A DNA stretch of 64,000 nt from the NCBI GenBank assembly GCA_026390815.1, contig JAPLFH010000033.1, forward strand, positions 62,001-126,000, given 5' to 3'. Under the pieces are notes generated by a model. That model saw nothing but the letters and a program-made list of their open reading frames with translations. It did not search any database and was not told where the DNA came from. The translations under genes and the position numbers were made by a program. This document shows positions 38,651 through 62,291 of the stretch, piece by piece. Each line of letters begins with the position of its first letter. Within the stretch, counting starts at the first letter, position 1. The DNA comes from Ignavibacteriales bacterium. Its GTDB lineage: Bacteria > Bacteroidota > Ignavibacteria > Ignavibacteriales > SURF-24.

Positions 38651-40438
38651 ATGATCAAAAATAAAATTCTGATAATTTTTCTGTTAACAGTCGCCGGAAA
38701 TTTATTTGCTCAAACCGCAAGTTTCGATTGGAAACTGCACGATGTTGGTAACGTAAGACAAGTTGTTACAAACCGCGGTGGATTCAATGCTAAAGGTGAC
38801 AATACATTTAGCTTCAGGGGTTTAATAAATTGCGAGCATCCACCCAACAGTGGTGTTGAGCATATGACTAACTCCGGTATTACAATAGGTGGAATATATG
38901 GCGGTGTTAGATCAGTTTCTGTTTCCGATGGGGAATCCGGAAACACACACGAATTTTATCCTACCGATGAACCCTGGGATACTGTTTGGGTTGTTGGCAG
39001 AAGAGATACTGTTGATATTCCTTATTGGAAAAAATATGTCGGCATTTCAGATCAGGATTTTGTTTGCCGGTATAACGATTATGGACCTATCAGTCAGAAA
39101 ATTACAGATCATAGACCATTGTATATAGATGTAATTCAAACTTCCCATGCTTGGGCAACTAAACCACTCGATGAATCGATAGTAGTTGATTGGTATATTA
39201 TACCAACCCAGTACAATTTGGAAGATGTTTATGTCGGAGTCTATTTAAATGGTAATGTTGGTTACGTTTTTAATGGTACAGACTATGCCCTGGATGACCA
39301 ATCATTCTGGAGTTCCAAAGACACAATACAATTTGCAGAAGATGTACCTGGAGGTGTTGATGGAAATAATAGCATGCTGGGAGAAAAATTTTTCTGTCCG
39401 CGGAATAAAAGTAATAGTTTAACGCTTACTTATATCTGGTGGAATGGAGGTAAAGCTTCCCCGCCTGCGTTGGATAATGATAAATATATTCAAATGGGTT
39501 CCGGCGAACAGATGGAAGACCAGGCAAGCACCGGAGATGGTACTAAATCCCAGCTTTCATTTGGACCATATGAAAGTGTAAAAGTTGGCGATACACTTCA
39601 TGTAACTATGGCAATAATTTTAGGTTGGACAGAAAATGAGATTAGCGGTAAAGCACAATTCCTGGAAAAGATAAGACCACGGTACAGAGTTCCTTCGCCA
39701 CCACCAAGTCCAAAAGTAAGAGTAGTGGCAAGCGATCAAAAAATAACTTTGAATTGGGAAGCGCAACCCGGGGATGTTAATCCTGAAGAGTTTCTTGATC
39801 CCGATAGATCTGACGGAATTAAGAAATCTTTTGAAGGGTATAAGGTTTACAAAAGTACTGAGAGTAAAAATGGTCCCTGGACTTTGCTTGGTCAGTACGA
39901 TCTCACAAACAATTATGGACAGAATACTGGTTTGGTTAGAGAATTTACTGACGAAGGATTATTAAATAATATTGAATATTACTATGCTGTTACTGCATAT
40001 ACAATTCCTGATACTAAAAGTGGTTTTCCTGAACTTGAATCTGGCAAAACAGTAAGCAGTTTAACAGTTGTTCCCGGAACACCGCCGCCACCTACAGTTG
40101 GAAAAGTTGCAGTTGTTCCTAATCCTTATCGAGGTGATGTTGCATATAATACTTACAGTCCTCCGTGGGAAAAGCCAGGCGGTTCAAGAAAAGAATGGAT
40201 GGAGCAGGATAGAAGAATTCAATTTATTAATCTCCCGGACAGATGCGAGATAAAAGTTTATACAATCGCCGGCGATCTTGTTACAACCATTCGGCATGAA
40301 AGCATAACAAGAGGTTATGAAGATTGGAATATAACTTCATCTGTTGGTCAGGCAATTTCAAGTGGAATTTATTTGTACACAGTTCAAGATTTAAATAACG
40401 GAAAAGTTCAGGTAGATAAATTTGTAATTCTTAAATAA
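38651..40438 (+). CDS. Secreted FN3 protein with variant C-terminal sorting domain
   Basis: A 595-residue exported protein; signal ends NLFAQ (about residue 21). The N-terminal 350 residues form an unrecognised beta-rich domain (FSFRGLINCEHPPNSG; WVVGRRDTVDIPYWKKYVG). A fibronectin III domain follows around 355-480 (KITLNWEAQPGD ... EGYKVYKS). The end starts VVPNPYRGD and closes VDKFVILK, a variant of the FlgD-like/T9SS domain with PNPYRGD in place of NYPNPFNP. It is placed between the TonB receptor and the PorV-like gene, as in comparable loci in the phylum, and may be the transported or displayed partner. Confidence 0.8.
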   Translation: MIKNKILIIFLLTVAGNLFAQTASFDWKLHDVGNVRQVVTNRGGFNAKGDNTFSFRGLINCEHPPNSGVEHMTNSGITIGGIYGGVRSVSVSDGESGNTHEFYPTDEPWDTVWVVGRRDTVDIPYWKKYVGISDQDFVCRYNDYGPISQKITDHRPLYIDVIQTSHAWATKPLDESIVVDWYIIPTQYNLEDVYVGVYLNGNVGYVFNGTDYALDDQSFWSSKDTIQFAEDVPGGVDGNNSMLGEKFFCPRNKSNSLTLTYIWWNGGKASPPALDNDKYIQMGSGEQMEDQASTGDGTKSQLSFGPYESVKVGDTLHVTMAIILGWTENEISGKAQFLEKIRPRYRVPSPPPSPKVRVVASDQKITLNWEAQPGDVNPEEFLDPDRSDGIKKSFEGYKVYKSTESKNGPWTLLGQYDLTNNYGQNTGLVREFTDEGLLNNIEYYYAVTAYTIPDTKSGFPELESGKTVSSLTVVPGTPPPPTVGKVAVVPNPYRGDVAYNTYSPPWEKPGGSRKEWMEQDRRIQFINLPDRCEIKVYTIAGDLVTTIRHESITRGYEDWNITSSVGQAISSGIYLYTVQDLNNGKVQVDKFVILK

Positions 40439-40523: not shown

Positions 40524-41447
40524 ATGTTTAAAAAATTTCTTACAGTATTTATTCTTTTAACAGCAGTGGTTTTTGCACAGTATGAAAGGCCCGGTAGCAC
40601 GGATGGACAGTTCCTGAAGATTGGAGTTAGTCCCCGTGGTACCGCTCTGGGCGATGCTTACATTGCTGTTGTTGATGGCGCCGAAGGTACGCATTATAAT
40701 TCCGCTTCTTTAGCATGGCTGCAAGGAACAGACATCGTTTTTAATCATAATGTCTGGTTTGCAGGAATCAACCACGACTTTGCCGCTATTGCGCATAACT
40801 TTGGAGATTACGGTACTTTCGGACTTTCTGTAATTGGTTTATACACAGATGAAATGCTTGTTCGAACCCCACTTCAACCCAATGGAACCGGAGAAACTTT
40901 TTATGCCGGTAATTATAAGCTTGGATTAACATATTCGCGTTATTTTACTGATAGAGTAACTGTTGGTGCAACTTTTAATTATGTCAATCTTTCTTTGTAC
41001 AAAGGATTTTCAGCAAGCGCCATCGCTATTGATATTGCAACGATGTATGTATCTGAGTGGCGCGGATTTAAATTTGCGATGCAGATTTCTAATTTTGGTT
41101 CGAATGTAAAATTTGTGAATGAATCTTATCCGCTTCCAACCAATTTTACATTTGGAGCTGCAATAAATGCAATAGAATTAGATCAGCAAACTTTTTTGGT
41201 TAGCTTTGCCGCCACAAAACCAAATGATGGTTCACCTCAGGCTCAGTTAGGTGGTGAGTGGAATTTTTTCAATACTTTTTTTGCACGCGGCGGTTTGCAT
41301 TTGAATCATGAGATTGCAAAGTATTCCTTTGGTGCTGGTTTTAAAATTAACATTAGTGATATTGATGTAAAAGCAGATTATTCATACAGCGATTTTAGTC
41401 TTTTAGGAGTGGCGCATAGATTCGGAATTGGATTTTCAATTAAATAG
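40524..41447 (+). CDS. PorV/PorQ-family outer-membrane protein
   Basis: A 307-residue beta-barrel with signal peptide (ends VVFAQ, residue 19). The family signature FLKIGVSPRGTALGDAYIAV (about 30-49) is followed by THYNSASLAWLQG, and repeated amphipathic strands run to the C-terminal IGFSIK. PorV shuttles T9SS cargo to the attachment complex at the outer membrane, and PorQ-like members may do the same for other substrates. Its place beside several cargo genes supports that role. It is the last gene before a clear terminator. Confidence 0.88.
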   Translation: MFKKFLTVFILLTAVVFAQYERPGSTDGQFLKIGVSPRGTALGDAYIAVVDGAEGTHYNSASLAWLQGTDIVFNHNVWFAGINHDFAAIAHNFGDYGTFGLSVIGLYTDEMLVRTPLQPNGTGETFYAGNYKLGLTYSRYFTDRVTVGATFNYVNLSLYKGFSASAIAIDIATMYVSEWRGFKFAMQISNFGSNVKFVNESYPLPTNFTFGAAINAIELDQQTFLVSFAATKPNDGSPQAQLGGEWNFFNTFFARGGLHLNHEIAKYSFGAGFKINISDIDVKADYSYSDFSLLGVAHRFGIGFSIK

Positions 41448-44047: not shown

Positions 44048-46006
44048 ATGAAATTGAAAATAATGTTTTGCTTTATCGTTTTATTTGTTGTACAAACGGC
44101 TGCTCAAACCCAGCTTGATAATTTATTTTCAATCTCGCGTCTTTCGTATTTGAAGAACAGCAGGATGATTCAAATATCCAGCTATGATACATCAGGTGGT
44201 AACAACGATTTCCTTCCTATCAAAAAAGGAAAATCGGCAACACTTGCAAATATAAAAGGACCCGGAGTAATTGCTCAAATGTGGGTTACAATTTCTTCAC
44301 GTGATCCTTATTTTCTGCGAAGGATATTGCTTCGGATGTATTGGGATGGCGAAAATAATCCTTCCGTGGAAGCACCAATCGGCGATTTTTTTGGAACAGG
44401 TTTTCAATACAAACAATATATTTCTCAGTTTGTTGGAATGACAAGCGGTGGATATTATTGTTACTTCCCAATGCCGTTCAATAAATCGGCGCGGATAGAA
44501 ATTGTGAATGAAACCGGGCAAGACATCATTTCATTTTATTATCATATTGATTATCAGAAACTTGAAAAAAGCTTGGAGAAAGATGTTGCTTACTTTCATT
44601 CCTGGTGGCACCGCGATGCAAAAACAAATCCAAAAGAAAATTATTTAATACTCGATGCTGAAGGGAATGGGCATTTTGTTGGAGTAAATATGAGCATGCA
44701 AGGGTATGATGGAAATCTATGGTTTCTTGAAGGTGATGAAATGGTTTATGTAGATGGCGAAAAATTTCCATCTATTTACGGAACTGGAACAGAAGATTAT
44801 TTTAACGGCGGTTGGTATTTTAACAAAGGAGAATTTTCAGCACCTTACCACGGAGTGATAGTAAAAGATGATTCACTTTCCCGCATTGCTGTTTACCGCT
44901 TTCATTTAGGTGATGTAATTCCGTTTAAAAAATCGCTTCGCTTTACAATTGAACATGGACACGCAAATGAGGAAACCGTTGATTACAGCAGTACGGCATA
45001 TTGGTATCAAAAGGAACCGCATAAACAATTTCCTGCAATGCTTGCTGCTAATTTAAGAATTCCGTTAAGAATGATAATTCCAAACAAAGCGCTGGAAATG
45101 GATTCTCTTCAAATATCCGGAACGCAATTAAAAAGTAAGATTGAAGATATGTCAATCTATGGTGCTGACTGGAAAGGAAATCATCAGTTAAAAGTTGAAG
45201 GAAAAAATCCCGGAGATGATTTTGCTCTCGATATTCCATCAGTCTTGGAAGACAAGTACAACATTGATATTTATTTTACCAAGGGACCAGATTATGGAAA
45301 TGCTGAAATTTTTTATGATGATGAAAAGCTGGCTGAAATAAATGGATTCAATAAAGAAGTATTTCCCGGTGGAAAAATTTCACTTAAAGAATTGAAATCT
45401 GTTAATGGAAAAATTCCTTTGAAATTTGTAATCGCGGGAAAAGATGATAAATCTATCGGCTACGCAGTTGGACTTGATGCCTACGTAACAGAACCAAACC
45501 GTAAATTTATTCCTGAGTGGTATATGATCGGTCCTTTTCCAAATCCAAATGATGAGAAGAACAACCGGCTTGGGCTTGACAATCAGTATCCTCCGGAAAA
45601 AGAAATCGAACTGGAAAAAAGTTATAAAGGAGTAAACGACAAAGAAGTTGGCTGGACTTTAGGTGAAACTCCAAAAGAAGGAAGAATGGATCTTTATAAA
45701 TATGATCCTTATGAACACGTTGTTGTTTATGCCTTAACTTACATTTACTCGGATGTTGAAAAAACAGTTCCTCTTCTTCTTGGTTCAGATGACGGCATAA
45801 AGGTACTACTCAACGATAAAGAACTTTATCGCGTGCTGGCAATTCGTTTGTCCGAACCTGATAAAGATAAAGTGCAACTCAATCTTAAAAAAGGCTGGAA
45901 TAAACTTTTGCTTAAGATTGAGAACAACTTAGGCGGATATTCTTTTTATGCACGGATATTGGATTTGGATAAATCTTTAATCATCAGCCCGAAACAAGAA
46001 AATTAA
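44048..46006 (+). CDS. GH172-type (DUF2961) glycoside hydrolase
   Basis: A 652-residue exported enzyme; signal ends QTAAQ (about residue 20). The DUF2961 core shows LANIKGPGVIAQMW, FFGTGFQYKQYISQF, and the hallmark YGTGTEDYFNGGWYF (about 250-264), whose acidic residue is the likely catalytic one, then FSAPYHG and FTIEHGHANE. GH172 members include difructose-anhydride enzymes and exo-alpha-D-arabinofuranosidases. The remaining 250 residues form two sandwiches, the last PA14-like (LLLGSDDGIKVLLNDKELY). No T9SS domain is present, so it may stay in the periplasm. Its stop overlaps the start of the next gene by one base. Confidence 0.88.
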   Translation: MKLKIMFCFIVLFVVQTAAQTQLDNLFSISRLSYLKNSRMIQISSYDTSGGNNDFLPIKKGKSATLANIKGPGVIAQMWVTISSRDPYFLRRILLRMYWDGENNPSVEAPIGDFFGTGFQYKQYISQFVGMTSGGYYCYFPMPFNKSARIEIVNETGQDIISFYYHIDYQKLEKSLEKDVAYFHSWWHRDAKTNPKENYLILDAEGNGHFVGVNMSMQGYDGNLWFLEGDEMVYVDGEKFPSIYGTGTEDYFNGGWYFNKGEFSAPYHGVIVKDDSLSRIAVYRFHLGDVIPFKKSLRFTIEHGHANEETVDYSSTAYWYQKEPHKQFPAMLAANLRIPLRMIIPNKALEMDSLQISGTQLKSKIEDMSIYGADWKGNHQLKVEGKNPGDDFALDIPSVLEDKYNIDIYFTKGPDYGNAEIFYDDEKLAEINGFNKEVFPGGKISLKELKSVNGKIPLKFVIAGKDDKSIGYAVGLDAYVTEPNRKFIPEWYMIGPFPNPNDEKNNRLGLDNQYPPEKEIELEKSYKGVNDKEVGWTLGETPKEGRMDLYKYDPYEHVVVYALTYIYSDVEKTVPLLLGSDDGIKVLLNDKELYRVLAIRLSEPDKDKVQLNLKKGWNKLLLKIENNLGGYSFYARILDLDKSLIISPKQEN

Positions 46007-49000: not shown

Positions 49001-49599
49001 AAAATTATTTTCCCGGAGTCCGAAACAGCTGCGGTAATTTTAATTTTGGTCTGAGCAGTCAGGGCGAACTTCTCCGTGTGCTTAATTGTAATGATGTTTT
49101 AATTGATTCACTAACGTATAATCCCAAATTAAGCTGGCTTACTGAAGCTGATGGAAGTGGGAAAACTATTTCATTAAAAAATCCGAACCTACAAAATTCT
49201 GATCTACAAAACTGGGCAGTTTCAATTGGGACTGGGACGCCTGGAAAAATTAATGATGTATACGCGTCGACTAAAGAAAGTGATGTGAGAGGTAATCTAC
49301 CATTGGAGTTTGCGTTATTTCAAAATTATCCCAATCCTTTTAATCCGGAAACTATTATCAATTATCAATTACCTTTTAGCAGTTGGGTAAAACTAAAAAT
49401 ATTTGATGTGCTGGGGAATGAAGTGACAACTTTGGTTGATGAGGATAAACCTGTCGGTGTTTACACTTATCAATTTCTAATCTCAAATTCTGGTAAGCAG
49501 AATCAATTATCAAGCGGTGTATATTTCTATTTACTAGAAGCAAGACAAACAAACGGCAGCACTTTCAGAAGTGTAAAAAAGATGGTGGTTTTAAAATGA
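46006..49599 (+). CDS. Secreted CotH-kinase/lamin-tail protein with T9SS sorting domain
   Basis: A 1197-residue exported multi-domain protein; the signal ends GFPQG. In order: lamin-tail domain ([18 protein letters not shown], about 20-115), a galactose-binding-like sandwich (about 120-285), a lamin-tail-like piece, a chitobiase-C-like segment ([12 protein letters not shown], about 390-400), and the CotH kinase domain (about 447-840) with [40 protein letters not shown] and [13 protein letters not shown]. An InlB-like repeat ([11 protein letters not shown]), a second lamin-tail domain (about 925-1060) and a T9SS domain ending KKMVVLK follow. CotH is a protein kinase of spore coats; its role in T9SS organisms is unknown. 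Confidence 0.9.
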
Positions 49600-50654
49600 T
49601 TATGACCGATCTAAAGAATAACCTGGCTAACTTTCCGCATAGAAGGTTGAATATATTGACGGGTGAGTGGACTCTTGTTTCCCCGCATCGTGTAAAACGC
49701 CCATGGCAGGGAAAAGTTGAAACGGCTGCCATTGAAGATAAACCGAAGTATAATCCAGACTGCTATTTATGTCCGGGGAATGAAAGAGCTGGAGGAAAAA
49801 GAAATCCTGTTTATGACAATACATTTGTATTTGATAATGATTTCAGTGCACTTCTGCCGGAACAGCCGGAGTTTAAATTAAATCAAAACAATTTGCTATT
49901 AGCCGAAAGTGAAAAAGGAATGTGCAAGGTGATCTGCTTTTCCCCCCGCCATGATTTAACTCTTGCCGAAATGGATGTAAAAGAAATTGTAAATGTTATT
50001 GAAGTATGGACAAGTGAATATGAGATTCTTGGTTCCGAAGAATTCATTAATTACGTACAGGTATTTGAAAACAAAGGCGAGATTATGGGATGCAGTAACC
50101 CGCATCCACACGGACAAATATGGGCGCAGCAAACAATACCGGTAGAGCCAGCTAAAGAAATTATTCAAATGAAAAAATATTTTAATGAAAAGAAAACGTG
50201 CCTATTGTGCGATTATTTGAAAATTGAAATTGAAGAAAAAGAAAGAATTGTTTATGGGAATGATGATTTTATTGTCCTTGTTCCGTTCTGGGCAGTTTGG
50301 CCTTTTGAAACAATGATTCTTTCCAAACGGCATCTCGGCAGTTTAAGAGATATGAATCCGCAGGAAAAGAATTCGTTTGCTGATGCAATTTCCAAAATAA
50401 CAATTAAGTATGATAACCTTTTTAATGTTTCATTTCCTTATTCCTCTGGTATTCATCAAAAGCCAACAGATGGAAAGAGATATGAGGAACTTCATTTTCA
50501 TATGCACTTCTATCCGCCATTATTACGATCGGCTGCAATAAAAAAATTTATGGTTGGATATGAGATGATGGCAAATCCGCAGAGAGATATTACTGCTGAG
50601 TTAAGTGCAACAAAGCTAAGAGAACTTTCGGTTGTTAATTATAAAATACGTTGA
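49596..50654 (+). CDS. galT: Galactose-1-phosphate uridylyltransferase
   Basis: A 352-residue cytosolic enzyme of standard length that exchanges UMP between UDP-glucose and galactose-1-phosphate in the Leloir pathway. Motifs are [19 protein letters not shown], zinc ligands in [19 protein letters not shown], and the active-site [12 protein letters not shown] with the uridylylated His, then [13 protein letters not shown]. Its ATG overlaps the CotH gene stop (ATGA), so it is co-translated with secreted-enzyme genes. galK and galE are not seen. Its presence is a good hint that the locus' glycan releases galactose. Confidence 0.95.
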
Positions 50655-50671: not shown

Positions 50672-52723
50672 ATGAATAAAGTAAATTTAATTCCGAACCT
50701 GACAAATAAAATTGTGCTGATCTTTATTTTCTTGTCTTCAATAATTTATTCGCAGATTTTAGTTTCTGAAAAGATTGATCTTCAATCTGGAATAAATGAA
50801 CAGAAGATTCAAGTTGAAATATTGCCATCCACTTTAGCTCCTAATGTTAATAATCTTTTTGATGGTCAAAATTTTTCTTTCGTCGGTGGCTCTGTGGATA
50901 GTATTACAGTAACAGTAAGCTTTGATGAAGCAATAAAAATTTCTGAGTGCAAAACATTTTTTGTCCTGTATGCCGGTCAGTATTCACTCGAAGCGGCATC
51001 CACCGATGATGATTTTAACAGCAGGACAGGAACATACCAGCAAATTCTTAATAATAAAAATTATGTTGCAAGTAAATTAGATTCTGTTGAAATAAATCTG
51101 GACATTGTTAAAGTTCTCCGTTTGACAGCAAAGAATCCTCAAACAAAAACAACTTATATCGGCGAATGGTCTCTCTACTATAACAACAAAATTGTTTCGT
51201 TGATTATTCTTCCATATCCGCCAAGACTTTTACCAAATACCAGTATAAAATTAAAAGCTGAAATGCTGGACGAAAAAGGTAAAACTTATCCGTACACTCT
51301 AAATGAAAATATCTCCTGGACTTCATCCAATCCAACTATTGCATCATTTAATGATGATAATTCAATCCTAACCGGCAAGCAGCTTGGTAATACTACAATT
51401 ACTGCGCAAACTGCGTCTGGTATTTTAAAAGGAACAGCAACTGCAACAGTGGAAAATGATTTTGTTTCTGAAAAAGCTGCGACCAGAATTGTAAAAGTAG
51501 CAGTAGTATACCAGGATCCAATGGTAGGAATTGGTGAAAAATTCCATAACCGTTATGGATGGCAGGATCCCAAATTTTATGTCCAGGAGTTAGTTAAAGC
51601 TTTTAAAACTGCAAGCGATGGTGTGATTCAATTTGAACTTACCGAAGTGCATGATGACCAAGTGCTATTTTCAAAACTTGATACAACTTATTTGACTGTT
51701 GGGCAAGTGGTTACTTACCTTGATGAACCAGGCTGGGCAACGATCCGTAACCTGGCTGAAAAAGAAAACAGAATAAAATTTGATTATAAAGGTATGCTCA
51801 AGTATTACGATTTTTACAATAAGCGCCAGCAGGGACTTATTGATGAAGTTTGGGTTTATGCCTGGCCTTTTGGCGGAATGTATGAATCGCAGTTGGTTGG
51901 TGTTAATGCTTTCTGGTGGAACTCGCCGCCAATTTCTGATGTGCCTGCAGAGTTTACTAAATTAATTTCTGTTATGGGATTAAATTACGAACGCGGTGTT
52001 GCAGAAGCGATGGAAAGCTTTGGACACAGAATGGAAAGCGCTTTGTGGCATACCTTCGGAAGATGGGATGGGAATAATCCTAATCCAAACAACTGGGAAA
52101 TCTTTACTACAATTGATAAGAATAAACCAGGTATGGCTCAGGTTGGTAACATTCACTTTCCGCATAATGGAATGAGCGATTACGATTTTAGTAACTCTAG
52201 AATGGCTGCTTCGTATGCGGACAACTGGAAAAGATTTCCCTGGCTGTTAGATGAGAAGCGGACTTTTAATTGCAGCGATTGGGGATGCTCTCATCTTGGA
52301 TATATGAAATGGTGGTATAACCATCTTCCAAGATACCAGGGAATAACAGATGGAATCCTTAATAACTGGTGGCTTTACTGGGCAGACTACGAAGGAGCAG
52401 TTGATCTGGCAAAGGAAACTCCGGTTGTAAAAGTTGAGGATGATTTCAAAGGACAACCACAAGGATTTAAATTAGAACAGAATTTTCCAAATCCTTTTAA
52501 CCCCAATACTACAATACATTTTCAAATTCCAACTTCAGGATTTATCAACCTTAAAATTTATGACACGCTTGGGAGAGAAGTAAAGACATTGTTAAATAAG
52601 GAAGCGTCCGCCGGATCTTACTCAGTAAATTTTAATGCTGCCAAACTTGCAAGTGGAGTTTATTTCTATAAGCTGCAAGCTGGTGCATTCAGCCAAACCA
52701 AAAAATTAATATTGATGAAATAA
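50672..52723 (+). CDS. Secreted unknown-family protein with BIG2 and T9SS domains
   Basis: A 683-residue exported protein, with the start at the ATG at 50672, 7 bases after AAGGAG; an upstream in-frame TTG at 50651 is less likely. After the signal peptide (ends IIYSQ) come a sandwich, a BIG2-like domain near 190-270 (NENISWTSSNPTIASFNDDN), then a core of about 320 residues that I do not recognise. The core holds IDEVWVYAWPFGGMYES, LNYERGVAEAMESFGHRMES (about 437-456), HFPHNGMSDYDFSNSRMA and YMKWWYNHLPR. The C-terminus is a T9SS type A domain (KLILMK). The core is shared with the next gene, so this is a two-gene family in tandem. Conserved His, Glu and Arg could be catalytic. Confidence 0.75.
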   Translation: MNKVNLIPNLTNKIVLIFIFLSSIIYSQILVSEKIDLQSGINEQKIQVEILPSTLAPNVNNLFDGQNFSFVGGSVDSITVTVSFDEAIKISECKTFFVLYAGQYSLEAASTDDDFNSRTGTYQQILNNKNYVASKLDSVEINLDIVKVLRLTAKNPQTKTTYIGEWSLYYNNKIVSLIILPYPPRLLPNTSIKLKAEMLDEKGKTYPYTLNENISWTSSNPTIASFNDDNSILTGKQLGNTTITAQTASGILKGTATATVENDFVSEKAATRIVKVAVVYQDPMVGIGEKFHNRYGWQDPKFYVQELVKAFKTASDGVIQFELTEVHDDQVLFSKLDTTYLTVGQVVTYLDEPGWATIRNLAEKENRIKFDYKGMLKYYDFYNKRQQGLIDEVWVYAWPFGGMYESQLVGVNAFWWNSPPISDVPAEFTKLISVMGLNYERGVAEAMESFGHRMESALWHTFGRWDGNNPNPNNWEIFTTIDKNKPGMAQVGNIHFPHNGMSDYDFSNSRMAASYADNWKRFPWLLDEKRTFNCSDWGCSHLGYMKWWYNHLPRYQGITDGILNNWWLYWADYEGAVDLAKETPVVKVEDDFKGQPQGFKLEQNFPNPFNPNTTIHFQIPTSGFINLKIYDTLGREVKTLLNKEASAGSYSVNFNAAKLASGVYFYKLQAGAFSQTKKLILMK

Positions 52724-52740
52724 TCTGGCGGAAAATATTT

Positions 52741-53757
52741 ATGATAAAACATCTTATCAACATTTCAATTGTTTTAGTAATTATATCCTTGTGGGGAAGT
52801 AACGATATTCTTTCAGGAGAAAATGGAAAAGGATTAACCATCAGAGTTCTTGTTCTGAATTTTGATCCGTTGATTCCACAAAAAGAAAATCAACCGCTTC
52901 ACTTAATCTGTAAGTGGAATGATCCACATAAACTTTCAGATGGCTATATCGAAGACGTAAAGCAATCGAGCGGCGGTTACATCAATTATAAAATCGTTGA
53001 GTGGCAGGATGTTGATGCTTTCCCAGTTAAAGCGGATGGATTCAAATATAATCCGGAAATGTATATGGCATGCTTCGAGAAAAAAGATAAATGGCATGAT
53101 CCAGATGGAGTTGATTATGAAAAACTGGTTGTTGATTACGGAGTTGTAGATAAAATAGATGGTGATCAAATTGATGAGTTGTGGATTTTTGGTGCTCCTT
53201 ACTTTGGTTACTGGGAATCTGCAATGGCTGGTCCGGGTGCTTTCTATATTAACGGCGGAGTGTACGACAGTGTAAAATCTAAAAAGCCATTTGTAATTAT
53301 GGGATTTAATTACGAACGCGGAGTAGCAGAAATGCTTCACGATCTATCTCATCGGACTGAATCAACAATGACGCGAATTTACGGCGGATGGGAAATTGAC
53401 AAACTTACCACAACCTGGGCTCGCTTTGCCGCAAATGCTTTTCAGTCAAATGGAGTTGCAGCAGTTGGAACATGCCACTATCCGCCAAATGGAGAAAAGG
53501 ATTACGATTATAAAAATCCGAGAATTGTAGAAAGCAGTGCTGATGACTGGTTGAACTTTCCCAAGTTGACAGGTGAAAAAAAGAAAGTATCCTGCGAAAC
53601 CTGGAGAGGACCAGATTACCACCGTAACTATATGAAATGGTGGTTTGCCCGTTTACCAAAAGCTGAAGGATTAAACGAAGATGGTAAGTTGAATAACTGG
53701 TGGGAATATGTTTTCAATTTTAATTCATATACAGAAACGGGAAAATTAATAAAGTAA
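52741..53757 (+). CDS. Unknown-family protein, tandem paralogue without sorting domain
   Basis: A 338-residue exported protein; an N-terminal hydrophobic helix could be a signal peptide. It shares the unrecognised core of its upstream neighbour: IDELWIFGAPYFGYWES, FNYERGVAEMLHDLSHRTES (about 189-208), CHYPPNGEKDYDYKNPR, SSADDWLNFP, YMKWWFARLPKAEGL and LNNWWEYVF. It lacks the BIG2 and T9SS domains, so the minimal unit is about 300 residues. A tandem duplication, followed by loss or gain of the flanking domains, is likely. It may stay periplasmic while the paralogue is displayed. The gap upstream is 17 bases. Confidence 0.72.
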   Translation: MIKHLINISIVLVIISLWGSNDILSGENGKGLTIRVLVLNFDPLIPQKENQPLHLICKWNDPHKLSDGYIEDVKQSSGGYINYKIVEWQDVDAFPVKADGFKYNPEMYMACFEKKDKWHDPDGVDYEKLVVDYGVVDKIDGDQIDELWIFGAPYFGYWESAMAGPGAFYINGGVYDSVKSKKPFVIMGFNYERGVAEMLHDLSHRTESTMTRIYGGWEIDKLTTTWARFAANAFQSNGVAAVGTCHYPPNGEKDYDYKNPRIVESSADDWLNFPKLTGEKKKVSCETWRGPDYHRNYMKWWFARLPKAEGLNEDGKLNNWWEYVFNFNSYTETGKLIK

Positions 53758-53856: not shown

Positions 53857-56619
53857 ATGAAGAAATTTTACTTTGTAGTTTTTCTTTTAATCGTTTTATC
53901 AAACATAAATTTTGCACAATCAATCCAGACAGTAAATTTATCTACAGGAAACGGATTAGAGGTTGCCTCTTATTTAATTGATGGAAAAACAATTTCTCTT
54001 AAACAGCCGCTTCCTCTTTTTTCATTCGAGCTAAACGACACACTTATAAATTCATCTTCTGCAAATGTAAATATTGTGGGAAAGGAAGTTCATTTCACTT
54101 TTCCACAGGGTGTAAAAGGAATTTTGATTCCCGAAGAAAAATTTTCACCTGGATGGAAAGCGCATCTTGTTCTTACTAATGGTAGAAAAGAAATAGTAAA
54201 AATCTCCAATCTCGTTCCTCTTGGTCAATCTCGGGAAAGAATTTATATCGCATCTTCAGAGCCTTGGAATTTAGCAAGCAGCAAACTCTTTCGTCCTGGT
54301 TTAGGTCCGGTTGGAATTGTTCTGCCGGATAATGCATGGCATCTTGGTTTCTGTGCCGCTGAAGTAGATTCTCAAAAATCAATTTGCGCAATTGCCAGAA
54401 GAACTAACAGTAAAGATGCTGAAGTAAGGCGTTATTCCACAAAACTAAATCATGGTGGAATCGTTGAGTATGATATTTATGCAGATCAATATTTTGGCGA
54501 CTGGCATAATGGTTTAAAGATGATGTTCCAGGAAAGATATCTTTACGATTTAGAAAAATTTGACAACAAACTTTTTGAGCGTGATGATTTGAAGTGGATC
54601 CGTAGTTCGTACGTTATTGCGCTTCAAGCAGGTTGGGATCACGAGTATTATGAAAAAGATGATAGCAAATATAAATTTCAAGATTACCTTGCCGAAGGGC
54701 AAAAATTATTTGGTGGCTGGGATGTTTTTGCAATCTGGCCTACGTGGCCAACTTTAGGGCTCGATCAACGCAACCAATGGGATCTTTATGCTGATTTACC
54801 CGGAGGACTTAACAAGATGAAAGAGCTTTCGGGTTTAGCGAAGAAAATTGGGACGAAGTTTTTTATCTCTTTTAACCCATGGGATAAATCAACACGCCAG
54901 GAAAATTTTTATACCGGAATGGCGCGACTGATAAGAGCAACAGATGCGGAAGGAGTTGTACTTGATACATACGGAAGTTCAAGCGATACTCTTCAGATGG
55001 CTGCAGATGGAGTGAAACCCGGTGTAATAATGTACAGCGAAGGAATGGCTGTTCCTAAAGACATGCCCGGTATTGTTGCTGGTCGTGTGCACGATGCTAT
55101 CTTTTTACCTCCGCCAGTAAATATGAATAAATTCATTAAACCGGATTTTGCAATCTTCCGTGTCTGCCAGTTAAGAGAAGGAAGGATTCATCGTGAAATT
55201 GCAATCTCGTTCTTTAACGGTTATGGTGTAGAAATGAATACATTTGGACCGGGGAGACCAGATTGGAAAGAAGAAGAATATTTGTACCTGGGAAGGACAA
55301 CAAAAATTTTACGAGAAAACACTTCTGCATTCAACAGCAAAAACTGGCTACCGCTTATTACAACATTAAAAGATAGTATTTGGGTTAACAGCTGGCCCAG
55401 TGATAATAAAACTATTTACACAATATTTAGTCTGAAGCCGGAAGGGTATGATGGACCGCTGTTCGAAACGAGTTTATCCTCTAACAATCATTTTGTTGAT
55501 TTATACCATCATGTTGAATTAAAAATTGATACGATCAAAGGAAAATATTATTTGCCGGTTAATGTGCAGGCATTCGATAAATCTGCACTTGGAACCCGAA
55601 TGGAGGGCAATGTTGATTGCATAGCTCAATTCCCAAAGTTGCTTCAGGTAAAATTAAAACGTGATTCACTTTTCATCTGGGCGAACACTGGTAAAAAAAT
55701 ATTGGTTTGGGCTGGAATACCTTCGTATCAGAACACACCGAAAGAATTTTCTATTGGTTCTTATCAATTAAAGCTTAGAGATTTGTTTGGAAGATATGAA
55801 GGTAAGTTTGTTATTCAGTTGTTTGATGAAAAAGAAATTCTTGATGAAGGAGTTGTAGAAATTATTCCTGGTACACCAAGATTGGTTAGTAAAGTTGATC
55901 GGACAATCCCCACAAATAAAATTCCTTCCGGAATGATTGAAATATCGGCAGGGGAATTCAATTTTAAAGTTGATGCGAATGATTCGTTCGTTCCTTATCC
56001 TGATTTTACTAAGCCGGAAAAAGTATTCATCAAAAAGTTTTTTATGGATAAATATCCGGTTACCAACAAATTGTTTTATGAATTTGTAAGCGATTCTAAA
56101 TATAAACCGGCAGATACTAATAATTATTTAAAGCACTGGAAAAATGGTTTGTACTTGAAAGAAGAGGAAAATTATCCCGTCGTTAATATAAGCTTAAGTG
56201 ATGCTAAAGCATACACAAAGTGGGCAGGAAAAAGATTACCAACAGAAATAGAATGGCAGTATGCAGCACAAGGAAGCGATGAAAGAAAATGGCCATGGGG
56301 GAAAGATTTTGATTCAACTAAATGCAATAATGCATTGGGCAATCCTACAAATGTTGATTCATTCCCGAATGGAAAAAGTCCGTTTGGAGTAATGGATTTG
56401 GTGGGTAATGTATGGCAGTTGACAAATGATGTTTATGATAACGATTCAGAATACTTTGCAATCATTCGTGGTGGAAGTTATTACAAACCAACATCAAGCT
56501 GGTGGTATGTAAATGGCGGACCTCAGCAAGTTAATCATAGCCAGATGCTGTTGATGGTTTCTGATGGCTTTGAACGCAATGCCACTGTTGGTTTCCGGTG
56601 TGTAAAAGATATTGAATAA
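53857..56619 (+). CDS. Secreted alpha-galactosidase-like barrel fused to an FGE-like domain
   Basis: A 920-residue exported protein; signal ends INFAQS. The N-terminal 230 residues form a beta-sandwich. Residues about 245-520 resemble a (beta/alpha)8 barrel of the GH27/31/36 superfamily, with SYVIALQAGWDHEYY, WDVFAIWPTWPTLG, TKFFISFNPWD, AEGVVLDTYG (a likely catalytic Asp) and VIMYSEGM. A sandwich follows. From about 690 there is a formylglycine-generating-enzyme-like domain: PSGMIEISAGEF, MDKYPVTNKLFYEFV, RLPTEIEWQYAAQG, GVMDLVGNVWQLTND, RGGSYY and TVGFRCVK. Near the end it lacks the two Cys that make an FGE catalytic, so it probably binds sugar or protein. Such a fusion is unusual. Confidence 0.75.
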   Translation: MKKFYFVVFLLIVLSNINFAQSIQTVNLSTGNGLEVASYLIDGKTISLKQPLPLFSFELNDTLINSSSANVNIVGKEVHFTFPQGVKGILIPEEKFSPGWKAHLVLTNGRKEIVKISNLVPLGQSRERIYIASSEPWNLASSKLFRPGLGPVGIVLPDNAWHLGFCAAEVDSQKSICAIARRTNSKDAEVRRYSTKLNHGGIVEYDIYADQYFGDWHNGLKMMFQERYLYDLEKFDNKLFERDDLKWIRSSYVIALQAGWDHEYYEKDDSKYKFQDYLAEGQKLFGGWDVFAIWPTWPTLGLDQRNQWDLYADLPGGLNKMKELSGLAKKIGTKFFISFNPWDKSTRQENFYTGMARLIRATDAEGVVLDTYGSSSDTLQMAADGVKPGVIMYSEGMAVPKDMPGIVAGRVHDAIFLPPPVNMNKFIKPDFAIFRVCQLREGRIHREIAISFFNGYGVEMNTFGPGRPDWKEEEYLYLGRTTKILRENTSAFNSKNWLPLITTLKDSIWVNSWPSDNKTIYTIFSLKPEGYDGPLFETSLSSNNHFVDLYHHVELKIDTIKGKYYLPVNVQAFDKSALGTRMEGNVDCIAQFPKLLQVKLKRDSLFIWANTGKKILVWAGIPSYQNTPKEFSIGSYQLKLRDLFGRYEGKFVIQLFDEKEILDEGVVEIIPGTPRLVSKVDRTIPTNKIPSGMIEISAGEFNFKVDANDSFVPYPDFTKPEKVFIKKFFMDKYPVTNKLFYEFVSDSKYKPADTNNYLKHWKNGLYLKEEENYPVVNISLSDAKAYTKWAGKRLPTEIEWQYAAQGSDERKWPWGKDFDSTKCNNALGNPTNVDSFPNGKSPFGVMDLVGNVWQLTNDVYDNDSEYFAIIRGGSYYKPTSSWWYVNGGPQQVNHSQMLLMVSDGFERNATVGFRCVKDIE

Positions 56620-56699: not shown

Positions 56700-59600
56700 A
56701 TGAGACTAACCATTCATATAGAAATCATTTTTCTACTAATCTTTCTTGTTTTAACCGCAGCAGCGCAAACTAAAATTGTTCGAACAGCATTCCTTTCCGT
56801 TCAGGAAGAGAAATTATTGACCCCGGAATTAAAAGCTGCCTATGACTTCTTAAAAAGCAATAAGGAATTCCAAACAAAGCTTATTACTTTCACTCAGCTA
56901 AAAAATAATCCATCTCTGCTTAAAAATTTGGATGTTGTGTGGTATCATAAGTCAGATACTCTGGGATTTTCCAAAGATGAAACAGATGCTAAAGTAATCG
57001 AATCATTGAAAAACTATATTACCAATGGTGGAAATCTTTTTCTAACGATGGAAGCATTCAATTATGTTGTTAATATGAACCTGGAAACTGAAATTCCAAA
57101 AGTAAAATATGTTGAATCAAAAGATGAAGGATATGGAAGGAAGCTCGGGCTGCATTCTTTCCGCAACCATCCAATCTTTGATAAAATGTTTGGTGGTGCC
57201 TATATCTGGAATGCCTACGAGGATAACAGATGCAGGCAGATAGGATATTTTGATGATGTCATTCCAAACGGAAAAGTGGTCGCAGTTGATTGGGCATATA
57301 TAACTTTATTTGAAAATTCAAAATTAATTTTAGAATATGAACAAGGGAAAGGAAAAATTATAGCTGTTGGTGCATATACTTATTTTGCCCCAAGGAATTT
57401 TAACAGACCGCTTCTTGAATTGTTCACAAAAAATTCTATTAACTATCTTGCAGGAAAACTGGATGGTGATAGAAAGTTTTATTGGAGCTATAAACCACAA
57501 GAGTTAGTTCTGTTTACTAATCCGCAATCTGCAATCACCATTCCACAATCCAAAGTGTGGGACAGAAATTTAGAATCGATGAAGCTTACTTCTCTTTATG
57601 GTTCGGAAAATTTTTACGATGTAGCCGGACAGCGAATGGTGATAATGGGAAAAGAGAAAGGCGGGATTGATGAGATTTGGGCGCATCCTTTTATGGCATT
57701 ACGCGATTACGAAGTCGGTATTCAATTTTCTTATCGCGATACAGTTTACTGGCTTGGCGATCAACGCCCTTTCATCGAAGTAAAGCCGGAATCATTCACC
57801 CGCACCTATAATTATCGCCGAGCATTTCTTAAGGAAGTTGTAATTGCAGATCCGGAAAAGCCGGTTGGTGTTGTTCACTATGAATATCGTGGATTGTTTC
57901 CGGCAAAGCTCATAATCAAATTTAAAAGCAATATGCGTTATATGTGGCCTTACTCAGAAAGAGCACTTGGATCTATTTATTATAATTTCGATTCAGCTTT
58001 AAATGCTTATACGCTTAAAGATGGAAGCGGGGATTTTAATGTAATAGTTGGTTCTAATAAAATTCCTCTTACAAAATTGGAAGGAAAGTTCGACAGCTTT
58101 GCAAAGAAAGATTCAGTGTTTACCGGTAAAGAAACAAAGAAATTTCAATTTGCTGCTATTCAACAGTTTAGTTTGAAAGAAAATGATAATATGGATATAG
58201 TTATAGTGGCAACTGATCAGGGAAAAGAAGAAGCATTAACTACATACAAAGATGCAATCCAAAACCCGGAAACGGTTTATCAGCAAATCACCAAATACAC
58301 GCGTGGAATTCTAAAAGACAAACTAACTATAACTTCTCCTGATAAAGATTTTAATGAAGGTTACCGCTGGGCTATGATTGGAACCGATAGATTTTTTGTT
58401 CATACGCCGGGAGTCGGGAAATCGATGGTAGCAGGTTATTCTACAACCGCAACTGGTTGGGACGGAAATCAAACTGTTAGCGGTCGTCCTGGGTATGCGT
58501 GGTATTTTGGCAGGGATGGGCAATGGAGCGGTTACGCACTTTTGGATTACGGTGATTTTGCAAAAGTAAAAGATCTTTTAGAATTCTTTCAAAAGTATCA
58601 GGACCTAACTGGTAAAATCTTTCATGAGTTAACAACAAGCGGTGTAGTTCACTACGATGCAGCCGATGCAACTCCGCTTTATATTATTCTTGCTGGAAAA
58701 TATTTGCGCCACTCCGGTGATGTTGAATTCATTAGAAAATCCTGGGACAATATTAAGAAAGCAGTTGATTACTGCTTTTCAACTGATACCGATGGTGATC
58801 ATTTAATTGAGAATACAAATATTGGTCATGGGTGGGTGGAAGGTGGAAAACTATACGGAACGCACACAACTTTATATCTTGCTGGAAGCTGGGCGGCAGC
58901 GTTAAGAGAAGCCAGTAATATGGCGAACAAATTAGGTCTCGATAAAGAAAGCAAATTCTATTCTGATGAATCTTCTTTAGTTACAAATATTATCAACAAA
59001 GATTTCTGGAATGAGAAGCGCAGCTTTTACTACGATGGAAAATTTAAGGACGGAACTTATCTTGATGAACCAACCGTTCAGGTTTCTGTTCCAATTTATT
59101 TTAATACAATTGAAAAGAACCGGATACCTTCTATGTTAGATGAATTTGCGAGCAACAATTTTTCTCCTGATTGGGGTGTAAGAATAGTTAGTGAGAAAAG
59201 TCCACTCTTCAAACCGTATGGTTATCATTATGGGAGTGTTTGGCCCTTGTTTACAGGCTGGGCTTCTCTGGCTGAATACAAAAATGGAAAATACGATCAA
59301 GGGTTTTTCCATGTTATGGCAAATTTAAATGTATATAAAAACTGGGCGCTTGGATTTGTTGAAGAAGTTATAAATGGTGCAGAGTATAAACCATCGGGGG
59401 TATGTAGGCATCAATGCTGGTCCGAGACGATGGTGCTTCAACCATTGCTGGAAGGAATGCTCGGACTGGAACCATCTGCACTGGAAAACAAAATAAAACT
59501 TGCCCCGCACTTTCCTGCGGATTGGGATTTTGCTGAAGTTGAAAATGCAAGATCAGGTTCGCAAAATCTTTCTTTCAAAATGAAAAGAGAAATGGACAAA

Positions 59601-60095
59601 ACCATTTATACGTTCGAGCATTCAGGCAACAAACCGCTTGAAGTTGAGTTTAATCCTTCATTTCCACTCAAGACAAATTTTGAGAAATTATTCATCGATG
59701 GGAAACAGGTTGAATTAAAAATAGCAAATGAACAGCAGGCAGTTATAATCAATTCTTCTTTTACTATTGATAAAAAAGCAGTTGTTGAAGTTTATCATAA
59801 GGGAGGTATTGCTGTTATTCCTGTAGTTACAAATCCAATTCCAGGAGATAGCTCACGAGGATTCAGAATTATCTCTTCCAAAATAGATGGAAACGATTTT
59901 GTTGTTAGCGTAGAAGGAAAGAATGGTAATCAGGAAGTGATGCAGGTTTATTGCCCGGCGAAAAATATACAAAGTGTGGAGAATGGTGAGATTGCAGGAG
60001 AAGAAAATGGAATTTATAAGATAAGGATTAACTTTGTTCATCCATCAGGAAAGTATGTAAATAAAGAAATAAAAATAATAACTAATCCGCATTGA
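56700..60095 (+). CDS. Secreted GDE-type glycosidase with ThuA/GATase-like N-terminus
   Basis: A 1131-residue exported protein; signal ends TAAAQ (about residue 22). Residues 25-260 are an alpha/beta domain of GATase/ThuA type (LDVVWYHKSD, LKNYITNGGNLFLTMEAF, GKGKIIAVGAYTYF) without a Cys nucleophile. Sandwich domains follow to about 520. Residues about 520-960 form an (alpha/alpha)6 barrel resembling the glycogen-debranching C-terminal domain: AWYFGRDGQWSGYALLDYGD, GKIFHELTTSGVVHYDAADA, IGHGWVEGGKLYGT, VWPLFTGWASLAEY and CWSETMVLQP. It ends in a sandwich without a T9SS domain. The linkage cut cannot be told; oligosaccharide trimming in the periplasm is likely. Confidence 0.82.
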   Translation: MRLTIHIEIIFLLIFLVLTAAAQTKIVRTAFLSVQEEKLLTPELKAAYDFLKSNKEFQTKLITFTQLKNNPSLLKNLDVVWYHKSDTLGFSKDETDAKVIESLKNYITNGGNLFLTMEAFNYVVNMNLETEIPKVKYVESKDEGYGRKLGLHSFRNHPIFDKMFGGAYIWNAYEDNRCRQIGYFDDVIPNGKVVAVDWAYITLFENSKLILEYEQGKGKIIAVGAYTYFAPRNFNRPLLELFTKNSINYLAGKLDGDRKFYWSYKPQELVLFTNPQSAITIPQSKVWDRNLESMKLTSLYGSENFYDVAGQRMVIMGKEKGGIDEIWAHPFMALRDYEVGIQFSYRDTVYWLGDQRPFIEVKPESFTRTYNYRRAFLKEVVIADPEKPVGVVHYEYRGLFPAKLIIKFKSNMRYMWPYSERALGSIYYNFDSALNAYTLKDGSGDFNVIVGSNKIPLTKLEGKFDSFAKKDSVFTGKETKKFQFAAIQQFSLKENDNMDIVIVATDQGKEEALTTYKDAIQNPETVYQQITKYTRGILKDKLTITSPDKDFNEGYRWAMIGTDRFFVHTPGVGKSMVAGYSTTATGWDGNQTVSGRPGYAWYFGRDGQWSGYALLDYGDFAKVKDLLEFFQKYQDLTGKIFHELTTSGVVHYDAADATPLYIILAGKYLRHSGDVEFIRKSWDNIKKAVDYCFSTDTDGDHLIENTNIGHGWVEGGKLYGTHTTLYLAGSWAAALREASNMANKLGLDKESKFYSDESSLVTNIINKDFWNEKRSFYYDGKFKDGTYLDEPTVQVSVPIYFNTIEKNRIPSMLDEFASNNFSPDWGVRIVSEKSPLFKPYGYHYGSVWPLFTGWASLAEYKNGKYDQGFFHVMANLNVYKNWALGFVEEVINGAEYKPSGVCRHQCWSETMVLQPLLEGMLGLEPSALENKIKLAPHFPADWDFAEVENARSGSQNLSFKMKREMDKTIYTFEHSGNKPLEVEFNPSFPLKTNFEKLFIDGKQVELKIANEQQAVIINSSFTIDKKAVVEVYHKGGIAVIPVVTNPIPGDSSRGFRIISSKIDGNDFVVSVEGKNGNQEVMQVYCPAKNIQSVENGEIAGEENGIYKIRINFVHPSGKYVNKEIKIITNPH

Positions 60096-60206: not shown

Positions 60207-62291
60207 ATGAAAAACCTTCTTGCTTTTTTAATTCTTTTAACTGTATCAACTTTTTCACAATATTTATCTGATCTGAACGCGACAAAAGTTGATCCGCTTT
60301 ATACAACTTATGCGGCACCGCTAAGTCGGGCTGAGTTTATCGTCGATCAGGGTTTTCAATTCATCTGGTACGATCAGGAACGAGGAATTGAATATCAAAC
60401 AGATCAAGCTGGCAATATGGGAATAGCTTTTAAGTGTAACGGAGTACTTCATCAAAAATTGCAGCAATATTACAAGCAGCCAACCATAACCGCAAATTAT
60501 AGCGATTTGGTAAAATATTATTATTATCCCTTTCAGAACATCCGTGTTGATGTTCTCTTTCAGGTTTATAATTCAAGGATTGCAATTCAGGATTTGAAGA
60601 TAACAAACGAAGGAATAAGCGATGCCGCGTTTTCAGTCTACCCATATATCAATCATACTAATGGAAAATATTCTGATGTAAACCTTACAAATGAAAATGA
60701 TGGTTTTACTTTCCATCACCGCGAAACCCCAGATGGTTGGATGAAAGAACACAACATACCCTTTCAGGAAGATCTGCTGAATGTATTTATAATTAATAGT
60801 TCGATTGATGCATCCGGAGTGTACAATCAATTTGATGCAAGGAAGAAAGACAATGATAGCTTGTTTGTAAATGATCTGAAGTTGGAATCTTTAAGTAATC
60901 TTGCATCAGACGGGATCATTAAAGTTCTTGCCTTACAAAAAAATTATCTTATGAAACCGAATGAATCGATAAATGTAAAAATCATAAAAGGAGTGGTTGA
61001 AGGAAATAAAGAAGCAAATGAACTTTTAACTCAATCCAGAAATCTGATGAAGGAAGATTTAAATAAATACTTGTTGGAAGATGAAAAAACTTATAGCGCA
61101 ATTCCTAAAATCAAATTTGATAAAAAAGATTTTGAGATGATGTATTGGAATGCTTTCTCACTAATCAGGCAATGCATGCTTCCACCCGAAGGAAAAAGTT
61201 CATACAATTATTATGTTTTCTCCCGCGAACCACAATGGGGCTGGGGGCATGGCGGGCAAGTCTTTCATGAAAGCCTTGTGATGTTGGCGTATGCTTTTAT
61301 GGATCCAGTTGGTGCGATGAACTCCCAGCGTGTATATATGGAACGTCAGTCGGACGATGGTTACATCAATTACAGAACCGGACCATATTTGGATGAGCAG
61401 ATAACAACGAACGGACAAAATACTTCATCGGCTCCATGGTTCAACTGGCAAAACTGGGAAATATATAAAGTTACTAAAGATAAAAAGTTTTTAAAGGATG
61501 CCTACAAGTCGGGTAAGAAATTTTATAATTATTATGTGAGCAACCGCGATTCCGATAAAGATGGTTTATGCGAATGGGGTGCTCATGCAGTTCTTGAATC
61601 TGTTCGCGATGCGTTTGTTGCAGTTTGGGATGAAGTTGCCGATCCTTCTAACTTTGAAGGCGTTGATGTTAACTCGATGTTGGTAAACGAAGCAAAAGCT
61701 CTTTCTGAAATGGCAAAAGAATTAGGAGAAGATAATGAGTCCAAAGTATGGCTGGACGATGCAAACAAGAGAGCTGACCTGATTAACAAATTTATGTGGG
61801 ACAAGGAAACAGGATTTTATTACAACATTGATAAAAAGAATCATAGCTTCACATTTAAAAATCAAAATGATCTTAAGAGAAAAGAAATTATTGGATTCTT
61901 ACCAATGTGGGCGGGCATTGCTACAAAAGAACAAGCAGTCGAACTAATGAAACATATGAAAAATCCTGCCGAGTTCTGGCGGAATTACGGCGTTCCAACT
62001 TTAGCGGCAAACGATAGCTACTACAATCCGATTGGCTATTGGAATGGACCTATTTGGGTTCCGTGGCAGTATTTAATATTCCGTGGATTGATGAATTTTA
62101 ATTACACTACCGATGCAAAAGAATTGGTAAATAAAGTACTTGATAATGTTGGCTGGCAGTTAAAAACCAATCATTGGTTCTGGGAATTTTACAGTGCCGA
62201 TGATTATCAGGCAGGATGGAATAAGACTTATATCTGGACAGGAATAATTTCAAGAATGCTAATTGATCTTGACAAAATGAATAATAAATGA
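60207..62291 (+). CDS. GH63/MGH1-like (alpha/alpha)6 glycosidase
   Basis: A 694-residue exported enzyme; signal ends STFSQ (about residue 17). A beta-sandwich N-terminal domain runs to about 290, and an (alpha/alpha)6 barrel covers about 305-690. Typical of the GH63-like MGH1 domain are EPQWGWGHGGQVFHES, DDGYINYRTGPYLDE, APWFNWQNWEIY, DSDKDGLCEWGAHAV, SYYNPIGYWNGPIWVPW and FWEFYSADDY. Enzymes of this group remove alpha-linked sugars such as glucose or mannosyl-glycerate; substrate here unassigned. The start (ATG 60207) follows TAAGG. It lies 25 bases from the GH3 gene. Confidence 0.85.
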   Translation: MKNLLAFLILLTVSTFSQYLSDLNATKVDPLYTTYAAPLSRAEFIVDQGFQFIWYDQERGIEYQTDQAGNMGIAFKCNGVLHQKLQQYYKQPTITANYSDLVKYYYYPFQNIRVDVLFQVYNSRIAIQDLKITNEGISDAAFSVYPYINHTNGKYSDVNLTNENDGFTFHHRETPDGWMKEHNIPFQEDLLNVFIINSSIDASGVYNQFDARKKDNDSLFVNDLKLESLSNLASDGIIKVLALQKNYLMKPNESINVKIIKGVVEGNKEANELLTQSRNLMKEDLNKYLLEDEKTYSAIPKIKFDKKDFEMMYWNAFSLIRQCMLPPEGKSSYNYYVFSREPQWGWGHGGQVFHESLVMLAYAFMDPVGAMNSQRVYMERQSDDGYINYRTGPYLDEQITTNGQNTSSAPWFNWQNWEIYKVTKDKKFLKDAYKSGKKFYNYYVSNRDSDKDGLCEWGAHAVLESVRDAFVAVWDEVADPSNFEGVDVNSMLVNEAKALSEMAKELGEDNESKVWLDDANKRADLINKFMWDKETGFYYNIDKKNHSFTFKNQNDLKRKEIIGFLPMWAGIATKEQAVELMKHMKNPAEFWRNYGVPTLAANDSYYNPIGYWNGPIWVPWQYLIFRGLMNFNYTTDAKELVNKVLDNVGWQLKTNHWFWEFYSADDYQAGWNKTYIWTGIISRMLIDLDKMNNK

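Follow-up and report, generated by a model that had tools for sequence, protein, structure and literature searches.

Our results indicate that two adjacent genes of an Ignavibacteriales bacterium, lying in the 64,000-nucleotide stretch of DNA analysed here (the window), encode divergent members of a protein family that we file as new and unnamed. The family is kept outside every zincin peptidase family because the HExxH motif was looked for and is absent. The best explanation of the two proteins, P1 and P2, to which we give somewhat less than even weight, is that they are metal-dependent, probably catalytic proteins directed at glycans or glycoconjugates and built on a divergent zincin-like scaffold. 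This explanation reads a metal, catalysis and a substrate from the observed family, structural model, residue conservation, domain architecture and locus. Although several phyla share the family, its structure is modelled with confidence and its polar site is invariant, it is nameless in Pfam, NCBIfam and the PDB. Should this site prove to be a true metal centre lacking the Glu of HExxH, it would represent either new chemistry on one of the most thoroughly studied protease scaffolds or a widely kept pseudo-enzyme, and P2, which has about 310 residues once the signal peptide is removed, is one small protein that suffices to test enzyme against pseudo-enzyme.

The features of the window discussed below are the following:

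44048..46006, + strand: DUF2961 (GH172-type) protein (PF11175, 1.4e-88), present in five of nine family loci
49596..50654, + strand: galT, galactose-1-phosphate uridylyltransferase, the genome's sole copy, directly upstream of P1
50651..52723, + strand: P1, 690 residues from a TTG start or 683 from the ATG at 50672; signal peptide, CBM32-like domain, BIG2 domain, predicted zincin-like core and T9SS tail
50759..51211, + strand: P1 N-terminal beta-sandwich, CBM32/discoidin-like (residues ~30-180 from the ATG; AlphaFold2 model and Foldseek)
51224..51451 (approximate bounds), + strand: P1 BIG2 domain (Pfam Big_2, PHROG Ig-domain, Foldseek)
51485..52417, + strand: P1 predicted zincin-like core (residues ~272-582; secondary-structure order as in P2; alignment A3)
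52013..52036, + strand: P1 helix motif E-S-F-G-H-R-M-E, counterpart of P2 residues 200-207
52484..52720, + strand: P1 T9SS type A sorting domain (TIGR04183, E 1.1e-12; PF18962, 3.5e-11)
52741..53757, + strand: P2, 338 residues, signal peptide and bare predicted zincin-like core (AlphaFold2 pLDDT 92, pTM 0.88)
53338..53361, + strand: P2 helix motif H200-D-L-S-H204-R-T-E207, in the place of the zincin HExxH
53476..53505, + strand: P2 H246-Y-P-P-N250-G-E-K-D-Y255, with invariant His, Asn and Tyr; candidate third metal ligand
53857..56619, + strand: 920-residue protein with a C-terminal FGE-sulfatase domain, conserved neighbour
56700..60095, + strand: (alpha/alpha)6 glycoside hydrolase-like protein (GDE_C/GH116-like), conserved neighbour
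60207..62291, + strand: MGH1/GH63-like glycoside hydrolase (PF22422, 1.5e-39), conserved neighbour

Architecture and descent of P1 and P2

The initial annotation had described tandem paralogues of an unrecognised secreted family that share three motifs. Both reading frames are there (50651/50672-52723 and 52741-53757, both on the + strand), and so are the motifs, namely NYERGVAEAMESFGHRMES in P1 and NYERGVAEMLHDLSHRTES in P2, PHNGMSDYDFSNSR and PPNGEKDYDYKNPR, and YMKWWYNHLP and YMKWWFARLP, respectively. The kinship is real: with P2 as the query, P1 was retrieved from the same genome with an E value of 6e-42 and 33% identity over residues 21-330, far past chance, and the core common to the two proteins comprises about 310 residues. 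This core does fall in no recognised family, given that neither single members nor a 38-member alignment matched Pfam (2025), NCBIfam (2026), PHROGs or PDB sequences. Moreover, the core of no member matched a curated CAZyme or glycoside hydrolase family in Pfam or NCBIfam.

The BIG2 and T9SS domains attributed to P1 were found as well, with different strength. The BIG2 domain scored 17.3 bits against a Pfam Big_2 cut-off of 22.8, a weak, sub-threshold match; the same region matched Ig domains in PHROG and Big_2 structures in Foldseek, and Big_2 is above the cut-off in a relative of P1 (L056). The C-terminal tail reached 47.8 bits against a TIGR04183 cut-off of 23, which identifies P1 as T9SS type A cargo. 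Models of the BIG2/Ig type and of the T9SS tail are the only convincing sequence matches of P1. The AlphaFold2 model (mean pLDDT 79.5) places ahead of the BIG2, core and T9SS domains an N-terminal beta-sandwich that goes beyond the initial annotation. Foldseek superposes this domain on the CBM32 structure 4a42 (TMt 0.74-0.75, rmsd 2.7-2.8), in agreement with a discoidin-type beta-sandwich, and further matches include sandwich-bearing chains of galactose oxidase and the CBM32 of NanJ. The likeness lies below Pfam sequence detection, as a Pfam search with the domain returned no CBM32 or F5/8 type C profile. ZmpB (7jfs), an M60 zincin with CBM32 domains, was also among the Foldseek matches of P1, with no true superposition.

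In a full-length alignment of nine P1-type proteins, all possess the N-terminal domain, the BIG2 region, the core and the T9SS tail. The tail is absent from P2 and from a third type of copy. This third, divergent copy lies in the same genome, 8 kb beyond the window (L103:5448-9023, equivalent to G000:C33 131448-135023), and encodes 1192 residues, in which the core is C-terminal to an (alpha/alpha)6 glycoside hydrolase-like protein. Hydrolase and core of this third copy are encoded by two separate genes in the related genome G001.

A tree of 66 cores, built with the helix-motif segment masked, puts P1 in a 12-member clade confined to the phylum of the window, P2 in a separate deep clade with Armatimonadota and Planctomycetes, and the third type in a third deep clade. 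The closest relatives of P1 and P2 are their counterparts in a SURF_24 Ignavibacteriales MAG (66% and 74%), and there too the two genes lie side by side. The conserved adjacency and the separate deep clades argue that the tandem pair is old, and the tree rules out a recent tandem duplication. Thus 'tandem paralogues' describes the position of the two genes but not their origin as duplicates. Likewise, the suggestion that one copy had gained or kept the BIG2 and T9SS domains is better put in terms of descent: P1 comes from an old clade in which all members have this architecture, and P2 from a different one.

A conserved galactose/arabinose locus

The stop codon of galT overlaps the TTG start of P1, so that the two genes probably form one operon. 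A conserved gene set surrounds the family in the window and in five related genomes (G001, G010, G023, G028 and G140), each of which has most of its members: DUF2961 (GH172), GH127, MGH1/GH63-like and GDE_C-like hydrolases, GalT, GalK, a LacI regulator (identified by eye) and an SSS symporter. In five of the six galT-bearing genomes the single galT lies less than 18 kb from a family gene, at 0.8 kb in G000, 2.8 kb in G010, 0.6 kb in G028, 2.8 kb in G140 and 17.5 kb in G023. In addition, most MGH1-like genes of G000, G001, G010, G023 and G140 fall in the family region. These genomes are related, and the shared set therefore represents one conserved locus and no independent events. In Ignavibacteriota and their relatives, the family marks a conserved locus for galactose/arabinose scavenging. 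With regard to the GH172 member, D-arabinan is a substrate of GH172 enzymes from gut Bacteroidetes (PMC10115798), and difructose dianhydride of GH172 in Bifidobacterium (PMC8605356).

The 920-residue protein at 53857-56619 is secreted, and the ~690 residues at its N-terminus resemble, by eye, a GH36-like TIM barrel, although Pfam gives no convincing match. No Pfam family was assigned to three other reading frames of the galactose/arabinose locus (34345-35808, 38651-40438 and 40524-41447), of which the second and third have counterparts in the related loci (families F10 and F4).

Predicted fold, polar site and possible function

The AlphaFold2 model of P2, built with 38 homologues, is confident (mean pLDDT 92, pTM 0.88). 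Its secondary structure (beta 32-41, alpha 62-76, beta 81-91, 146-151, 160-163 and 184-190, alpha 194-214) gives the order beta1-alphaA-beta2-beta3-beta4-beta5-alphaB plus inserted helices, which is that of the zincin N-terminal subdomain; the agreement with a five-stranded sheet, helices A and B and a metal-helix after the last strand is one in the order of elements only. The helix 194-214, which follows the fifth strand, bears the conserved motif with H200 and H204. Among the best 50 Foldseek matches in the PDB, all are zincins wherever the description identifies the match, and those named include TACE and other ADAMs, snake-venom metalloproteinases and the M6 immune inhibitor A2 (InhA2). 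Another match, 6o38 (CpaA chaperone complex), is one that we take to be a metalloprotease.

Structure prediction and a profile-profile search had both been proposed with the initial annotation as ways to place the core. The former gave zincin matches, all of them weak: the best E value is 1.5e-3, the probability at most 0.99, the TM score at most 0.42 (0.22-0.42 for most) and the rmsd mostly about 7 Å. The latter gave nothing significant, whether HHalign compared the family with reprolysins (A5; probability 0.3) or with M6 (A6; probability 0.5 over 20 columns), both sets being drawn from related genomes, and a Pfam search found no peptidase M6 match in the family. The best reprolysin alignment puts HDLSHR on HEMGHQ, which is not counted as evidence. 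Searches of a viral structure library returned low-scoring, mixed matches, of which just some are metalloproteases, and no counterpart was identified for the C-terminal ~120 residues of the core. Overall, the P2 core is quite probably zincin-like, short of a proven zincin. This judgement is supported by the confident model, by the zincin-only named matches and by the position of H200 and H204 in the expected helix.

Compared with metzincins and other zincins (adamalysin/ADAM, TACE, M6 InhA), its best structural matches, the P2 core is alike in the order of strands and helices and in a pair of ligand-type residues, spaced by four positions, on the helix that follows strand five. It is unlike them in the absence of the HExxH Glu and in having Glu instead of Gly three residues past the second His, and the family shows no sequence or profile similarity to them. 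In place of HExxH there is [H/E]200-[D/N/S/A/G]201-x-x-H204-[R/Q]-x-E207, plus an invariant downstream His (H246). None of the 66 sequences has HExxH, since position 201, where zinc proteases have their general base, is never Glu, and the reprolysin-type motif HExxHxxGxxH/D is likewise absent, position 207 being Glu instead of Gly. Position 200 is Glu in 43 of the 66 sequences and His in the other 23, with nothing else, and six or more changes between the two states fall on the tree, for which this segment had been masked. It is among just three two-state columns of the alignment, the other two being Ser/Ala and Ala/Pro. A change from His to Glu requires two base changes via Gln or Asp, and both intermediates are absent at this position, from which we infer that His and Glu are both selected as metal ligands. 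The behaviour of position 200 thus suggests, at the level of sequence, a metal ligand.

H204, E207, H246, E159, E146, N250 and Y255 are invariant in the alignments collected by homology. The 66-sequence set was gathered with a motif, which conditions the invariance of R193, H204, E207, H246 and N250 there but leaves position 200 unconditioned; the claims for the conditioned residues rest on the homology-collected alignments A1, A3 and A9. When phage copies are included, E159, H204 and E207 are still invariant, and E146, H246, N250 and Y255 nearly so. The initial annotation had taken strictly conserved His, Glu, Arg and Asp as the mark of an active site and not of a scaffold. Strict conservation is indeed seen for His, Glu, Asn and Tyr in several phyla, and to a large extent in phage copies, a pattern that resembles a functional site more than a scaffold. 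A clean site of the four residues named is not supported, since in the third sub-family R205 is replaced by Gln and D254 varies.

In the best explanation, a divalent metal would be bound by residues 200 and 204 together with a third ligand, either H246 or E207. The base would have to be another invariant acid (E159, E146 or E207), since the catalytic Glu of HExxH is gone. The loss of that Glu also means that the reaction is probably other than ordinary peptide-bond hydrolysis. P1 would leave the cell through the T9SS and be directed to its target by the CBM32-like domain, and P2 would be secreted as a bare unit. Both may help to degrade an extracellular galactose/arabinose-rich glycan or glycoprotein, and the galactose set free would be used via the neighbouring galT, galK and symporter genes. 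The glycan-directed part is supported by the CBM32-like domain, the CAZyme and galactose neighbours and the third copy fused behind a glycoside hydrolase; the weak Foldseek scores, the non-significant HHalign results, the absence of the HExxH Glu and the Chloroflexota copies described below, which have neither signal peptide nor CAZyme neighbours, count against the explanation as a whole. M60-like mucinases (PF13402; BT4244, ZmpB) are comparable in mode of action only, as secreted zincins behind CBM32 in glycan-foraging bacteria (PMC3267712, PMC13003899). They differ from the family, which has neither a PF13402 match nor HEXXHX(8,28)E. M60 identity had been considered for the CBM32 architecture, and was rejected on the lack of this motif and of any PF13402 match in 59 related genomes.

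The competing explanations overlap with one another and with the main one. As the catalytic Glu is missing throughout, these proteins may lack catalytic activity, and it is conceivable, if rather unlikely, that they are pseudo-proteases in which a zincin scaffold serves as a glycan- or protein-binding module (adhesin or capture), the conserved residues forming a structural metal site or a pocket. The absence of the HExxH Glu from the whole set fits this, the partner domains (CBM32, BIG2, discoidin-type) point to binding, and the core is rich in conserved Trp; moreover, vertebrate M60-like proteins are reported to have degraded zincin motifs that suggest lost activity (PMC3267712). However, the polar site is kept across phyla, single-copy and phage forms included, and a constraint to His or Glu alone at one position would be unusual for a purely structural site.

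We consider it improbable that the core is no zincin at all, its fold being new, its active site unrelated and its Foldseek matches the reflection of a generic alpha/beta sheet and helix. The low TM scores and high rmsd, the HHalign results, the mixed viral matches and the C-terminal part without counterpart all favour such a fold, but every named match in the PDB top 50 is from zincin families and the conserved H/E-x3-H sits in the expected helix. Slightly more improbable is an atypical metallopeptidase or glycopeptidase that retains peptide-bond cleavage (of O-glycosylated proteins, for example) by means of another general base, where CBM32-bearing M60 mucinases use a normal HExxH. The zincin-like fold seen by Foldseek and the combination of CBM32 and zincin, as in ZmpB/M60 (7jfs, the match of P1 mentioned above; PMC3267712, PMC13003899), would be in line with it. 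Against it, the zincin catalytic Glu (PMC3267712) is replaced by D/N/S/A/G in this family, and searches by sequence and by profile linked the family to no group of peptidases.

A bolder version of the metal-dependent, glycan-directed explanation, possible though doubtful, is that the family is a new metalloenzyme class of several phyla and phages, with a zincin scaffold and, in place of HExxH, a His/Glu-interchangeable [H/E]xxxHxxE + H site, acting on glycans or glycoconjugates and not as a classical protease.

Distribution across phyla and phages

The family ranges over Ignavibacteriota/Bacteroidota, Armatimonadota, Planctomycetes, Chloroflexota and phage contigs. A search of genome contigs with P2 yielded 45 further homologues, mostly from Chloroflexota, the others from Armatimonadota, Planctomycetes, a Pleurocapsa MAG and an Ignavibacteriales MAG. 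Of 296 whole genomes searched from the phylum of the window, 7 have the family, usually with one to three copies and at most eight; of 201 from Chloroflexota, to which the Anaerolineaceae genome G328 belongs, 33 have it, nearly all of them in single copy.

The Chloroflexota copies have no signal peptide, and their neighbours are housekeeping genes (DNA ligase, FtsH-type protease, sigma factors), with no CAZyme context. The expectation that homologues always sit in CAZyme loci is therefore rejected for the family and stands for the window's own lineage, just as 'secreted' is right for P1 and P2, which have signal peptides, and wrong for these copies. Their substrate must accordingly be a different or an intracellular one, which excludes an extracellular glycan as the common substrate of all members. 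Several of them (L010-L046) have a short amphipathic start and a Pro-rich linker, e.g. MSQSGSFLQSLLEMLSRLLGSRPAPPPP, which is possibly a membrane or particle targeting tail. In Armatimonadota, one copy has a discoidin-like stretch ahead of the core, read by eye and without a Pfam score, and the copies adjoin Kelch and F5/8-type C proteins.

Ten contigs in IMG/VR encode the family, with one copy adjoining a terminase gene and one near a tail protein gene; searches of plasmids and annotated phage records gave no matches. In the phage contig reading frame L122:2641-4617, two partial cores stand in reversed order, a C-terminal part first and the N-terminal part of a different core after it, for which circular permutation, recombination and an assembly artefact are all candidates. 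Another phage copy (L123:2680-3882), beside the gene of the terminase large subunit, consists of two reading frames and has possibly decayed. Finally, two Armatimonadota proteins (L133:14823-16097 and L136:2295-3593) that have no Pfam match resemble the C-terminal third of the core only, and are possibly a further divergent branch of the family.
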